Shown here: positions 18,041 through 24,445 of the stretch, in pieces
How the letters are laid out: every line of letters starts with the position of its first letter
Numbering within the stretch: position 1 is the stretch's first letter
DNA from: Tsukamurella paurometabola DSM 20162
GTDB taxonomy: Bacteria > Actinomycetota > Actinomycetes > Mycobacteriales > Mycobacteriaceae
Reading direction: 5' to 3'
NCBI RefSeq assembly: GCF_000092225.1
Contig: NC_014158.1
Location: forward strand, 4,154,001 to 4,218,000
DNA length: 64,000 nucleotides
Translations under genes and position numbers: made by a program
The notes under the pieces: model-generated
Database searches by the model: none
What the model saw: the letters and a program-made list of their open reading frames with translations, nothing else
What the model was told of the DNA's origin: nothing

Positions 18041-18898
18041 GTGACGGCCGGACGCTATGCACCGAGCCCCTCGGGCGATCTGCATGTGGGGAATCTGCGA
18101 ACCGCACTGCTCGCGTGGCTGTTCGCCCGCTCGACGGGCCGCGAATTCCTCATGCGGGTCGAAGATCTCGATACCGGACGGACGGTCGACGGTGCCCAAG
18201 CACGTCAGTTGGCCGACCTCGCCTCGCTGGGACTCGATTGGGACGGTCCCGTCGTCCGGCAGTCCTCGAGAACCCGGATGTACGCGGATGCGCTGGAGCG
18301 ACTCGATGTGTACGAGTGCTATTGCACCCGCCGCGAGATCCTCTCGGCACCTTCCGCCCCGCACACCCCCGACGGCGCCTATCCCGGCACCTGCCGTGAC
18401 CTCACCGAGGCGGAGCGCGTGGAGCGGCGGGCGGCCCGCCCGGCGGCCCTGCGGCTGCGTTCGACGGTGCGCTCGTTCACCGTGCACGACGAGTTGCACG
18501 GTCAATACACCGGCGTGGTCGACGATTTCGTGCTGCGACGCGGAGACGGCACGTACGCCTACAACCTCGCCGTGGTGGTCGACGATGCCGCCCAGGGCAT
18601 CGATCAGGTGGTGCGCGGCGACGATCTGCTCTCCTCCGCTCCGCGGCAGGCCTACCTCACCGAGTTGCTCGGCGGTACCGCACCCCGGTACGCGCATGTG
18701 CCGATGGTCTTGGGCCCCACCGGTGTCCGGCTCGCCAAACGGGACGGTGCCGTCACCCTCATCGAGCGCGGAGGGCCACAGGTGGTGCTGCCGGAGCTGG
18801 CCGCCAGCCTGGGACTGGCCGGGTCGACCCCGACCGACATGCTCGACGGCTTCGATCCGGCGCGGCTCCCCCGCGAGCCCTGGACGCTTCCGCTCTGA
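18041..18898 (+). CDS. gluQ: glutamyl-Q tRNA(Asp) synthetase
   Basis: A 285-residue truncated glutamyl-tRNA synthetase paralogue. The class I HIGH-type motif is in [20 protein letters not shown], the KMSKS-type motif is RLAKRDG, and a zinc site CYC...Y..GTC sits near residues 90-115. It lacks an anticodon-binding domain. GluQ-RS transfers glutamate onto queuosine at position 34 of tRNA(Asp) rather than onto the tRNA end. The start is GTG 18041. A Tgt domain, which installs the queuosine base, is encoded within 3.5 kb. Confidence 0.9.
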
Positions 18899-20142: not shown

Positions 20143-23100
20143 CTAGTCCGACTTCGCGAGGTGCTGCTGGGTGCCCTTGTAGTAGCGGCCCAGGAACTCC
20201 TCCTTGAACTCCCAGTAGGTGCCGTCGACCATCGACTGCCGGATCTTGGCCACGAGCGAGACGATGAACTGCTCGTTGTGGATGGTCGCCAACGTCGCCG
20301 CCAGCCCCTCCTTGGCCTTGAACAGGTGGTGGATGTAGGCCCGGGAGAACTGCGAGGTGTAGTTCTGCGTCTCCGGGTCGAGCGGCTGGAAGTCGGTCTT
20401 GAACCGCGAGTTGGTCACGTTGTAGCGGCCGTCCACGGAGTAGATCGCGCCGTTGCGGGCCACCCGCGACGGCGACACGCAATCGAAGGTGTCGATGCCC
20501 TGCTCCACCGCGGCGAAGATGTCGTCCGGCTCGGAGATACCCAGCAGGTGCTTCGGCTTATCCTCCTCCAGCTCCTGGTTCACCCAGCGCACGATGGTCG
20601 CCAGGTTCGCCTTCTCCAGGGCACCGCCGATGCCGTAACCACCGAAACCGAGACCGCCGCCCTCGCGGTCCTCGTCGCTCAGCGCCCGCAGATCACGAGC
20701 GGCCTTGCGCCGCAGGTCCTCGTACTGCGCGCCCTGCACCACGCCCCACAACGAGATCGCGTCGTGGCGCTGCGCGGTGAGCCAGTTGTGCTCGGACAGC
20801 GAGCGCCGGGCCCACAGCCGAGTCCGCTCCAGCGACTCCACCTGGTACGCCCGGGTGTTGTGCAGGGTGGTCAGCTCATCGAAGGCGAAGATGATGTCGG
20901 CGCCCAGCTGGTGCTGGATCTGCATCGACCGCTCCGGCGTGAACCGGTGCTCCGTGCCATCGAGATGGCTCAGGAAGGTGACCCCGTCGTCATCGACGCG
21001 GGAGAGCCGGTCCTTGCCCTCGGCGATGGCATCGTCGCCCTGCAGCTCCTGATCACCGTTCATATCGATGACCTTCTTGAAGCCCGAACCCAACGACATC
21101 ACCTGGAAGCCACCGGAATCGGTGAAGGTGGGGCCGTCCCAGTTCATGAACTTACCGAGGCCACCGGCCTGCTCCACGATCTCCGGGCCGGGCTGCAGGT
21201 ACAGGTGGTAGGCGTTCGCCAGTACCGCCTGCGCACCCAGATCGGCCACTGCATCCGGCATCACCGTCTTCACGGTCGCCTTGGTGCCCACCGGGATGAA
21301 CGCCGGTGTCAGGATCTCACCGTGCGGCGTGAGCAGGCGGCCGGCACGGCCCAGCGGACCGTCGGGCCCCTCGAGCCGCGCGTCGATGTCGAACCGGGTC
21401 GGATCGCTGATGTGCTCGTTCTGCAGCCGGGTACGGCTGGTCATCGAGCGGTAGTCGGACCGCAGCGCGGTGAGCTCCGCCGCGATCGCCTTGTTCTGCT
21501 CACGCAGCTGCGCCAGCTCGTCGCGAGTGCGATCCGCGCGGGTCCGCTCGGCCCGGCGGATGGGCCCCGTCGTGGTCTCGGCATCCGTCGGCTTGGCCGG
21601 GCGCGCGAGCGGGTACTCGCCGGTATCCGGGACGGAAACCGCTGCGGCGGCCTCGGTCTCGTCGGCGTCCGTCGATGCTGCGGCCGGAATCGGCGCGGTC
21701 GCCGCGGCAGCCGGTGTCGACTGCGCCGGGATCTGCTGCGTGGGCAGGCCCACCGGCGCGGTCGGGACGGCACCGTTGACGTAGCCGTTCACGCCGCCGG
21801 TCACCTTCACCTTCTCGGTGTCGGACGCGCCCGCACGGGCTGCCACCGGAACCTCGGTGGTGTCGTGCTCGGCCAGTGCGTCCGGGAGCGGCGCGGTATC
21901 GGTCGAGGTCTTGGCCAGCACGGAGGCGAGCGCTTCACCCTCGATATCGACGTTCGGCAGGATCCGGTCGAGCCACTTGGGCAGCCACCACGCGGCATCG
22001 CCGAGCAGCATCATGATCGAGGGGATGATCACCATGCGCACCACGAAGGCGTCGAACAGCACGGCGGCGGCCAGGCCGAAGCCGATCTCCTTGATGAACA
22101 CCGCGTCGTTGAGGATGAACGAGGCGAACACCGAGATCATGATGATCGCGGCGGCGGTAACCACACGGGCGCCGTACTGCACACCGGTGACGACGGACTT
22201 GGTCGCATCGCCCGTGTGCGTGTACTCCTCACGCATCCGGGACACCAGGAACACCTGGTAGTCCATCGCGAGGCCGAAGACGATGCCGATCATGAAGATC
22301 GGGAGGAACGACACCAGTGGCTGCGTGTTGTCGATGAGGCCGAGCGCACCGTCGGTGAAGATCGCCGAGGTCACGCCGAAGGTGGCCACCACCGAGAGCA
22401 GGAAGCCGAGCACGGCCGTCAGCGGCACCAGGATCGACCGGAAGGCCACCAGCAGCAGCAGGAAGGCGAGGCCGACGACGATGGCGACGTAGATCGGCAG
22501 CGCCTCCTTCGACAGCTTCTCCGAGATGTCCATCTCGATGGCGGTGTTACCCGCCACGCCGAGGTCCATGTTGAAGGCCTGCTTGAGGCCGTTCGGTCCG
22601 TTCGGCAGCGCCCGCAGGTCCTCGACGAGGTCCTTGGTCAGCTGATCGGTCGGGCCGCCCTTGGGGGTGACGACGATCGTCGCGGCCTTGTTGTCCGGCG
22701 CGAGCTGCGCGATCTGGGCGTTCGCGACCTTGGTCTTCATCTCGGGATCGTTGTTGAGCCGGTCGACGATCTGCGCGTAGGCGCGCAGCCGCTGGCCCGG
22801 ATCGGCTTTCGAACCGTCGACCGCCACCATGAGCTGGCCGTTGGAACCCTTACCCCACGCATCCGAGGTGAGGTCGTAGGCCTTGCGTTCGGACGTCGAC
22901 TTCTCGCTCATGCCCGAGCTCGGTAGCGCGGTCTGCATGTCCTTCATCGGAATCGCGAGGATGCCGAGCACCGCGACACCGGCGAGCAGCGTCACGACCG
23001 GGACCTTCTTGATCACATTGGCCCAGCGCAGGCCGTTCGCGGTGCGGCCCTCGCCCTCGTCGGTGTCCGGCGGGTGCAGGCCCTTGACCCGGCCGGCGAA

Positions 23101-24291
23101 GACCTTGCTGCCGAACAGGCCCAGCAGGGCCGGCAGCAGGGTGAGCGCGACGATGACGGCGATGAGCACGCCCCACGCCGCCGCCACACCCATCTGGCCG
23201 AGGAAGTCCATCCCGATGAAGGCGAGCGCGGCCAGCGCGATGATCACGGTGAGGCCCGCGAAGATCACCGCGGAGCCGGCGGTGCCCACGGCGATACCCG
23301 CCGCCTCGGCGCGCTGCTCCTTGGTGGTGGCGCCCAGGCGCCGGAGTTCGTGCCGGAATCGGGACACGATGAACAGGGCGTAGTCGATGGTGACGGCGAG
23401 GCCGATCATCGAGGTGAGCACCGTGGGGAACGTGCCGAGCTCGATGAATCGGGTGGCGATCATGACGCCCGCGAGGGCGACGGGGACCGCGATGATCGCG
23501 TTCATCAGCGGCAGGCCCCATGCCACCAGCGAAGCGAACGTGATGATCAGGACGATCGCGGCCACCAGCATGCCGATCAGCTCGCTGGTCATGCCCATGT
23601 CTTCCATGCCCTTGGCGGCGGAACCGTCGGCCTCGACCTGCAGCGACCCCTGCGAGGCGTCCTGGCCCGCGATCCGGGCGTCCTTGATCTTCTCCGCGGT
23701 GTCCTTCGGCAGATCGGTGACCTTGCCGATGAAGTCGACCTTGAGCTTGGCGGTCTTCCCGTCCGGGCTCACCGTGGAGGTGACGGCGGCATCGGCCTTC
23801 TGCTGCTCGGGCGATTTGGTGGAGGCGATGTCCTTCTGCTGCGCCTGCATCGCGGCCAGGGTGTCGCGCTGCGCGGGAGTGAGGACACCGTCGTCGAGCT
23901 TGCCGGTGGGGTTGTGCAGGAGGTTCGGGTCCTTGACGATCGAGACCTGCGTGCCGTTCTCGTCCTTGGTGAGGCCCTTGATCTCCTCGATCGTCTTGTC
24001 GATGCCCGCCGTGTTCTTCGGATCGGTGAGCTTGCCGTCCTTGGCGTGGAAGACGATGGTCGCCGACGCGCTCGTGAACGGATCATCGGAGCCCTGTCCG
24101 CCGAACTGCGCGTTGACGATGTCCGTCGCCTTCTCGGACGGCAGCCCGGGAAGGTTGAAGTTGTCGACGGTGGGCTTGCTGAGCGTCGCGGCACCGACGC
24201 CCATGCCGATCAGCAGCAGCACCCAGACGGCGATGACCTTGAAACGGTTCAGGTAGGCGAACTTGCCCAACCGGTAGAGAAGCAGTGCCAT
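20143..24291 (-). CDS. MmpL/RND transporter fused in frame to tRNA-guanine transglycosylase
   Basis: One uninterrupted 1,382-residue frame. Residues 1-790 are an MmpL-type RND transporter with two half-repeats, each holding the proton-relay GxxxDY motif (GLAVTIDYALFIVSRF and GLAMDYQVFLVSR). Residues 790-950 are an acidic Ala/Thr/Pro linker ending in a coiled-coil-like stretch. From M950 (ATG at 21444) a Tgt domain of 433 residues follows, with DSGGFQVMSLG (active-site Asp) and FDCVSPSRVARNG (nucleophile Asp). The zinc cysteines of bacterial Tgt are missing: the CxCxxC site reads T-Q-N-Y-T-S at 20353-20370; the distal His in TIHNE remains. ATG 24291 has GGAG upstream. No stop separates the parts, but internal initiation at 21444 could also give free Tgt; no good Shine-Dalgarno is seen there. 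Confidence 0.85.
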   Translation of the reverse strand: MALLLYRLGKFAYLNRFKVIAVWVLLLIGMGVGAATLSKPTVDNFNLPGLPSEKATDIVNAQFGGQGSDDPFTSASATIVFHAKDGKLTDPKNTAGIDKTIEEIKGLTKDENGTQVSIVKDPNLLHNPTGKLDDGVLTPAQRDTLAAMQAQQKDIASTKSPEQQKADAAVTSTVSPDGKTAKLKVDFIGKVTDLPKDTAEKIKDARIAGQDASQGSLQVEADGSAAKGMEDMGMTSELIGMLVAAIVLIITFASLVAWGLPLMNAIIAVPVALAGVMIATRFIELGTFPTVLTSMIGLAVTIDYALFIVSRFRHELRRLGATTKEQRAEAAGIAVGTAGSAVIFAGLTVIIALAALAFIGMDFLGQMGVAAAWGVLIAVIVALTLLPALLGLFGSKVFAGRVKGLHPPDTDEGEGRTANGLRWANVIKKVPVVTLLAGVAVLGILAIPMKDMQTALPSSGMSEKSTSERKAYDLTSDAWGKGSNGQLMVAVDGSKADPGQRLRAYAQIVDRLNNDPEMKTKVANAQIAQLAPDNKAATIVVTPKGGPTDQLTKDLVEDLRALPNGPNGLKQAFNMDLGVAGNTAIEMDISEKLSKEALPIYVAIVVGLAFLLLLVAFRSILVPLTAVLGFLLSVVATFGVTSAIFTDGALGLIDNTQPLVSFLPIFMIGIVFGLAMDYQVFLVSRMREEYTHTGDATKSVVTGVQYGARVVTAAAIIMISVFASFILNDAVFIKEIGFGLAAAVLFDAFVVRMVIIPSIMMLLGDAAWWLPKWLDRILPNVDIEGEALASVLAKTSTDTAPLPDALAEHDTTEVPVAARAGASDTEKVKVTGGVNGYVNGAVPTAPVGLPTQQIPAQSTPAAAATAPIPAAASTDADETEAAAAVSVPDTGEYPLARPAKPTDAETTTGPIRRAERTRADRTRDELAQLREQNKAIAAELTALRSDYRSMTSRTRLQNEHISDPTRFDIDARLEGPDGPLGRAGRLLTPHGEILTPAFIPVGTKATVKTVMPDAVADLGAQAVLANAYHLYLQPGPEIVEQAGGLGKFMNWDGPTFTDSGGFQVMSLGSGFKKVIDMNGDQELQGDDAIAEGKDRLSRVDDDGVTFLSHLDGTEHRFTPERSMQIQHQLGADIIFAFDELTTLHNTRAYQVESLERTRLWARRSLSEHNWLTAQRHDAISLWGVVQGAQYEDLRRKAARDLRALSDEDREGGGLGFGGYGIGGALEKANLATIVRWVNQELEEDKPKHLLGISEPDDIFAAVEQGIDTFDCVSPSRVARNGAIYSVDGRYNVTNSRFKTDFQPLDPETQNYTSQFSRAYIHHLFKAKEGLAATLATIHNEQFIVSLVAKIRQSMVDGTYWEFKEEFLGRYYKGTQQHLAKSD

Positions 24292-24445
24292 GGGAGGTAC
24301 TCCGGTTCGTCGGACGGCGCGTGGGACTGCCGCGGCCGCGGCTGCGGTTCTGCCGACAAGTGTACCGATGGTTTCACCCTGCAATAAAGTCGCTGACCGG
24401 GTCTTTTGTGAGTTCAATCACGGAATCATGGGTAGGGTGTGGCGC

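Follow-up and report, generated by a model that had tools for sequence, protein, structure and literature searches.

A Tgt fused to an MmpL exporter in Tsukamurella and a putative family of worn-down copies of its zipper and Tgt end on other exporters

The stretch of Tsukamurella paurometabola DSM 20162 DNA analyzed here (the window; 64,000 nucleotides, NC_014158.1, positions 4,154,001 to 4,218,000) carries a single stop-free frame on the reverse strand (20143-24291) that runs from an ATG at 24291 to the stop codon at 20143-20145 and encodes a protein of 1,382 residues, in which an MmpL/RND exporter is joined, via a linker rich in Ala, Thr and Pro and a zipper-like helix, to a complete Tgt, a tRNA-modifying enzyme. 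The fusion is genuine and conserved across the genus, and its zipper and Tgt end recurs as a module on further exporters, where the Tgt has lost most of its base-pocket residues. We favor a reading to which we give slightly less than an even chance, namely that the window protein would be a tethered, working Tgt and that its zipper and Tgt end has been copied to further exporters, where it would be a tag without catalysis that possibly dimerises.

Results

A stop-free frame joins an MmpL exporter to a complete Tgt

The frame is composed of the following parts and sites:

21925..24291, reverse strand: MmpL-type RND exporter part, residues 1-789 (Pfam MMPL; MmpL3 chains as nearest solved relatives)
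21520..21924, reverse strand: Ala/Thr/Pro-rich linker, residues 790-924 (135 residues; composition and the ratio of nonsynonymous to synonymous substitutions, dN/dS)
21415..21519, reverse strand: zipper-like helix and conserved exit, residues 925-959 (heptad with L, N, L, Y at the a and L, I, L at the d positions; profile match of 99.7 bits)
20143..21351, reverse strand: Tgt part, residues 981-1382 plus stop (Pfam, TIGR00430, site table and fold search)
20350..20373, reverse strand: ETQNYTSQ, replacing three zinc cysteines (site table)
20323..20343, reverse strand: RAYIHHL, corresponding to Tyr330/His333 of the Tgt dimer hot spot (site table; hot spot as given in the text of PMC5395182)

The original prediction of an MmpL transporter and a full-length Tgt without an intervening stop was borne out by the frame itself and by Pfam, which in one protein identified MMPL with 277 bits in two stretches (cut-off 20.5) and TGT with 382.5 bits (residues 981-1371). 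The Tgt part also passes TIGR00430 (379.2 bits, cut-off 306.75). The best solved relatives of the MmpL part by sequence are chains of the trehalose monomycolate exporter MmpL3 (E 2e-54), yet with 233.1 bits it stays far below the cut-off of 1400 bits of the MmpL3 equivalog NF052608. Both MmpL halves contain an Asp-Tyr motif, which we take to be the proton relay; only that of the second half (GLAMDY, residue 673) is one of the two strict GxxxDY motifs that had been predicted, the first being AVTIDY. The end of the MmpL core around residue 789 is our own cut, placed at VDIEGEALA, and counted from there to Met 950 the link has the predicted 160 residues. Its predicted acidity turned out to be mild, with 22 Asp/Glu versus 16 Lys/Arg residues, and its last part carries the heptad pattern.

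Third-position G+C is 0.94 in the MmpL part, 0.87 in the linker, 0.91 in the zipper and 0.92 in the Tgt part. As it is only 0.55 upstream of the ATG at 24291, this codon is the likely start, and the same value ruled out a TTG at 24417. A chance open frame in G+C-rich DNA was ruled out by the Pfam matches, the third-position G+C and the dN/dS values given below. The structure model has a mean predicted local distance difference test score (pLDDT) of 65.9 (22 rows), which suffices for the fold of Tgt and not for the zinc-less loop; the zipper was modelled as a single helix with low confidence.

The fusion is conserved in Tsukamurella and most likely arose from neighboring genes

The 15 other genomes of the genus include 13 in which MmpL motif, zipper and Tgt motif share a frame, so that, with the window genome (main contig of 4,379,918 bases) included, the frame is continuous in 14 of 16. 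The same frame in 13 further genomes excludes an assembly error and supports the suggestion of a genuine fusion by which Tgt would be tethered to the membrane. Two genomes deviate: in G014 (83% complete) the window-type gene is frameshifted, with MmpL and Tgt in frames that overlap but differ in phase, and in G007 the gene is split by contig ends. Five named matches to the continuous fusion (L094-L098) all come from Tsukamurella.

Tgt is free-standing in the sister-genus frames that we compared, and four of the longest, when put to Pfam, contained TGT alone. Of 20 fetched sister-genus loci, five have a separate mmpL gene immediately ahead of tgt on the same strand. The same neighbor order is found in named loci of Hoyosella, Lolliginicoccus and Williamsia soli, whose MmpL ends just past the motif where the Tsukamurella linker begins. 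Because the two genes are adjacent in sister genera, the fusion most likely arose from a neighboring mmpL/tgt pair. This agrees in part with the earlier idea of a lost stop codon, but stop loss alone is insufficient since linker and zipper are additional sequence that it cannot supply. In a tree of MmpL proteins, for which rows classed as 'other' were kept only if their locus number was divisible by three, the window MmpL clusters with four of the eight tgt-adjacent MmpLs and two near ones (Shimodaira-Hasegawa-like approximate likelihood ratio test, 93); three of the remaining tgt-adjacent MmpLs cluster with Rhodococcus MmpLs and one stands alone.

The zipper and Tgt end recurs on five kinds of exporters

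Searching with a zipper profile we identified 41 modules of zipper plus Tgt in all 16 genomes of the genus. With one exception every zipper is in frame with a Tgt; the G007 copy lies on two contig ends and was assigned to the window type by its Tgt half. Sixteen modules are of the window type (type A), 15 of type B and eight of type C, which is attached to a second MmpL, and two occur once each (L053 and L063). Their carriers comprise five kinds of exporters, two MmpL and three MFS proteins; the window genome has one Tgt domain besides that of the window, fused to an MFS protein. Type B sits on an OtrB-like MFS protein in 14 genomes, L053 (5864-8809) combines an LfrA-like MFS protein with a B-type Tgt module and adjoins a TetR-type regulator, and in L063 the module is attached to an EmrB-like MFS protein. 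The three MFS parts (B, L053 and L063) share only 25-30% identity with each other, and we therefore regard them as different exporters. One copy, L048 of genome G008, has a Tgt that falls outside the B clade; it was counted as type B on account of its MFS part, which shares 72% identity with that of L032. As to gene neighbors, a MarR-type gene precedes each of the fused MFS genes L032 and L048, L063 lies beside a sucrase/ferredoxin-like gene, and the C-type gene L065 follows a response regulator.

We ran Pfam on 12 fused copies (P0001, L032, L048, L049, L050, L053, L059, L063 and L065-L068) and NCBIfam on five (P0001, L032, L053, L063 and L065). With 227.7 (L032), 202.8 (L053), 164.8 (L063) and 118 bits (L065) all four copies of the other types stay below the TIGR00430 cut-off. 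In a Tgt tree that, like the site table below, includes 19 of the 24 non-genus genomes with Tgt and leaves aside the G007 copy, the 15 window-type rows are separate from all other fused rows and have end branches of 0-0.13; the stems of the B and C clades measure 0.41 and 0.98, respectively. The L053 module is nested inside the B clade, and from this position it looks like a recent transfer. The C-type MmpL did not group with the window MmpL. An origin of C by duplication of the entire window gene is thus unsupported by the MmpL tree, in which long branches make the placement of C unsure.

In all 40 scanned modules the a and d positions of the heptad are hydrophobic, apart from the second and the last a, which are Asn and Tyr, and Glu-Arg forms the second g-e pair in 39 of them; the G007 zipper, inspected separately, has the heptad pattern too. 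Asn at such an a position is characteristic of parallel dimers. Looking for the zipper outside the genus, in 298 genomes of the order with 22 candidates scored per genome listed, we obtained strong matches only in the two Tsukamurella genomes of this sample. A match in G113 (26.5 bits) was taken as chance, as it sits in a frame that by our reading looks like a glycosyltransferase.

Only the window type retains all catalytic and pocket residues checked

We tabulated functional sites in 15 window-type, 15 B-type, eight C-type and 19 free-standing Tgts, numbered according to Zymomonas mobilis TGT. The B rows comprise 13 OtrB-like fusions, L052 (G014) and L053; L048 and L063 are treated apart from the counts for B and C. 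D102, F106, Q107, D156, Q203, G230 and D280 are retained in all 15 window-type rows, and two substitutions in the window Tgt, Leu231 to Ala and Met260 to Leu, are the same in its free relatives. Among the Tgt types in these genomes only the window type has all of the catalytic and pocket residues checked. F106, Q107, D156 and Q203 are lost or unalignable in all B (15/15) and all C rows (8/8), D102 is retained in all 23, and D280 is present in 15/15 B rows and in one of eight C rows, the other seven having Glu. Gly230 is kept in 14/15 B and 6/8 C rows and Arg286 in 12/15 B rows. L063 has Asn at position 102, keeps G230 and D280 and has lost the other sites.

The zinc ligands Cys318, Cys320 and Cys323 are absent from all 15 window-type rows, and His349 is kept in every row. 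The same three cysteines are missing in 8 of the 19 free-standing relatives. Eight free-standing sister-genus Tgts (L015, L017, L018, L019, L020, L022, L025 and L030) lack them while keeping the histidine and the catalytic residues, and these may form a zinc-free Tgt lineage.

According to the text of PMC5395182 the hot spot of the TGT dimer consists of Phe92, Trp326, Tyr330 and His333. Tyr330 is found in 15/15 B and 7/8 C rows, and His333 in all 23.

Linker, zipper and Tgt are under constraint

Pairwise dN/dS values were calculated with our own Nei-Gojobori script for parts cut at fixed distances from Tgt, with the stretch from 150 to 30 residues before Tgt residue 1 as linker, and are rough. 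In type A the linker gave 0.21-0.47 (6 pairs) and the zipper 0-0.12; the linker thus evolves like coding sequence. For Tgt we obtained 0.01-0.09 in type A (6 pairs), 0.11-0.26 in type B (6 pairs) and 0.24-0.31 in type C (3 pairs), values that show B- and C-type Tgts to be still under purifying selection. The pair L053/L054, whose transporters are unrelated, is informative for zipper (0.26) and Tgt (0.24) alone.

Discussion

In the reading we prefer, the window Tgt would be held at the inner face of the membrane and insert salvaged queuine into tRNA. The B and C modules would not be enzymes; they may serve as a pairing device in which the zipper acts together with the remnant of the Tgt dimer face, and through it exporters would be joined to one another or to the active MmpL-Tgt, comparable to the pairing of inactive QTRT2 with QTRT1 in eukaryotes. 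The exporters would go on exporting their own substrates, and queuine would enter via a separate importer of the QPTR family. Pairing would be the likeliest purpose of the copied module.

Several observations weigh against this reading. The B module of G014 (L052:6916-8791) lies directly behind a MarR-type gene and has no MFS part, so that either the exporter is not needed, or was really deleted there, or the assembly is at fault. The C-type gene of G005 (L066:1914-5610) is split by an insert of about 3.6 kb that carries an ISL3-type transposase, and at the C locus of G011 (L208:3351-6729) the MmpL ends without a zipper and Tgt module. The latter MmpL is 68% identical to that of L065, a value at which it may be a paralog, and the downstream DNA is conserved; tblastn revealed no convincing remnant of the module at this locus, where we read a MerR-like frame instead. 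A strict need for pairing is disfavored both by the module that lacks an exporter and by the C loci in which the gene is broken or the module missing. Loss of catalysis is itself putative, as D102, D280, Gly230 and mostly Arg286 persist in type B and D102 and mostly Gly230 in type C, and L048 keeps F106, D156, G230 and D280, with Glu at 102 and with Q107 and Q203 lost. The dimer hot spot is only partial, Phe92 occurring in none of the 15 B rows and residue 326 being non-aromatic in seven of eight C rows, and Tyr330 and His333 could have been retained for folding instead. Finally, half of the tgt-adjacent MmpLs do not cluster with that of the window.

As a separate observation, the insert in the C-type gene of G005 also carries a DJ-1/AraC-type regulator.

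The best surviving alternative, which we nevertheless consider rather unlikely, is that the fusion matters little: Tgt would work as elsewhere, the tether would be neutral and the extra copies would be decaying duplicates. The strong conservation of the window Tgt fits this view, as do the divergence of type C, its interruption in G005, the lack of its module in 8 of 16 genomes and the module without an exporter in G014. It is at odds with B modules that are present in 15 of 16 genomes and have dN/dS values of 0.11-0.26, with a zipper pattern held in every scanned module, and with the apparently recent transfer of the module to the LfrA-like exporter.

Unlikely, and somewhat more so, is an import function, by which the fused transporter would take up queuine or another queuosine precursor and hand it to the attached Tgt, as proposed in Quaiyum et al. 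2024 and, as a coupling of queuine uptake to use, in the original prediction. QueA and QueG were each found in none of the 16 genomes of the genus (QueH was not searched), which makes salvage of queuine the likely route and means that the genus must salvage if it has queuosine at all; the text of Quaiyum et al. 2024 (PMC11130926) states salvage for most Actinomycetota of a gut set. The same text lists MMPL and MFS among the families scored as candidate transporters and describes a Bartonella MFS protein that moves preQ1 and preQ0, and mmpL stands beside tgt in several sister genera. Yet a QPTR-family importer is already present in all 16 genomes, and outside the genus it lies less than 2 kb from tgt in 12 of the 21 genomes having both (hand count). 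The best NCBIfam matches of the three fused MFS parts are OtrB/Tcr3, LfrA and EmrB-type exporters, with scores below the naming cut-offs except for the EmrB/DHA2 subfamily in two of them, and L032, L048 and L053 lie beside MarR- or TetR-type regulators. In addition, most of the base pocket is gone in the B and C copies, and, again in the text of PMC11130926, an MMPL protein of Corynebacterium propinquum failed to complement preQ1 uptake, for which the authors allow a failure of expression. Because QPTR occurs throughout the genus and the fused MFS parts resemble drug exporters, the import reading is weakened, and this coupling proved the weakest part of what had been predicted.

One further gene near the fusion belongs to this setting:

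18041..18898, forward strand: glutamyl-tRNA-synthetase-like gene (Pfam tRNA-synt_1c, 144.9 bits), which we presume to be probably GluQ

A homologue is found in 16 of the 20 fetched sister-genus tgt loci, which fits queuosine metabolism.

Quite improbable is the production of two proteins, the full fusion and a free Tgt made by proteolysis of the linker or from an internal start, for which 21444 had been proposed. There is an ATG at 21444, the corresponding Met is present in 14 of 15 window-type rows, and the linker is long and flexible. Against this, no Shine-Dalgarno-like stretch was seen by eye in front of 21444, G008 has Thr at this position, and the conserved zipper stretch spans it.

The original prediction knew of no standard fusion of this kind, a statement overtaken by Quaiyum et al. 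2024 (PMC11130926), whose text reports MMPL-bTGT (Tpau_4044) and MFS-bTGT (Tpau_0550) fusions unique to Tsukamurella species and proposes them as possible importers of queuosine precursors. By gene order number, not accession, these are almost certainly the window gene and the MFS fusion described here. Thus, the fusion itself is already published. The text of that article describes no zipper, no other module-bearing exporters and no loss of pocket residues or zinc cysteines; its supplements may differ. The family of worn-down module copies looks new, as we met none in the literature searched, although these supplements may mention it.

Compared with bacterial Tgt as represented by TIGR00430 and the Z. 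mobilis structures, the window copy shares the fold, D102, D280 and most of the base pocket; it differs in being fused to an exporter and in the loss of the three zinc cysteines, the latter also seen in the free relatives mentioned above. The closest parallel to the degenerate copies is QTRT2, described in the text of PMC6165067 as an inactive Tgt-type subunit that keeps the fold and has a degenerate base site and Glu for the catalytic Asp. Similarly, seven of the eight C rows have Glu at the position of Asp280, and active and apparently inactive Tgt types coexist. That text mentions no transporter for QTRT2, and the pairing in Tsukamurella is putative. Extending our preferred reading, zipper and Tgt may form a genus-specific docking module on unrelated exporters that assembles a membrane complex around one active Tgt, with the worn copies as bacterial counterparts of QTRT2; we regard this as possible, if doubtful.

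Fusions of an enzyme and a transporter are often read as a transporter feeding the enzyme. The genus-wide picture offers an alternative, testable reading, in which a tRNA enzyme has been turned into a tag for exporters, with copies graded from intact to degenerate. If true, this would link tRNA modification to membrane export and inactive Tgt subunits would gain a model in bacteria; should the tether alone prove real, the window protein would still be a natural membrane-bound Tgt.

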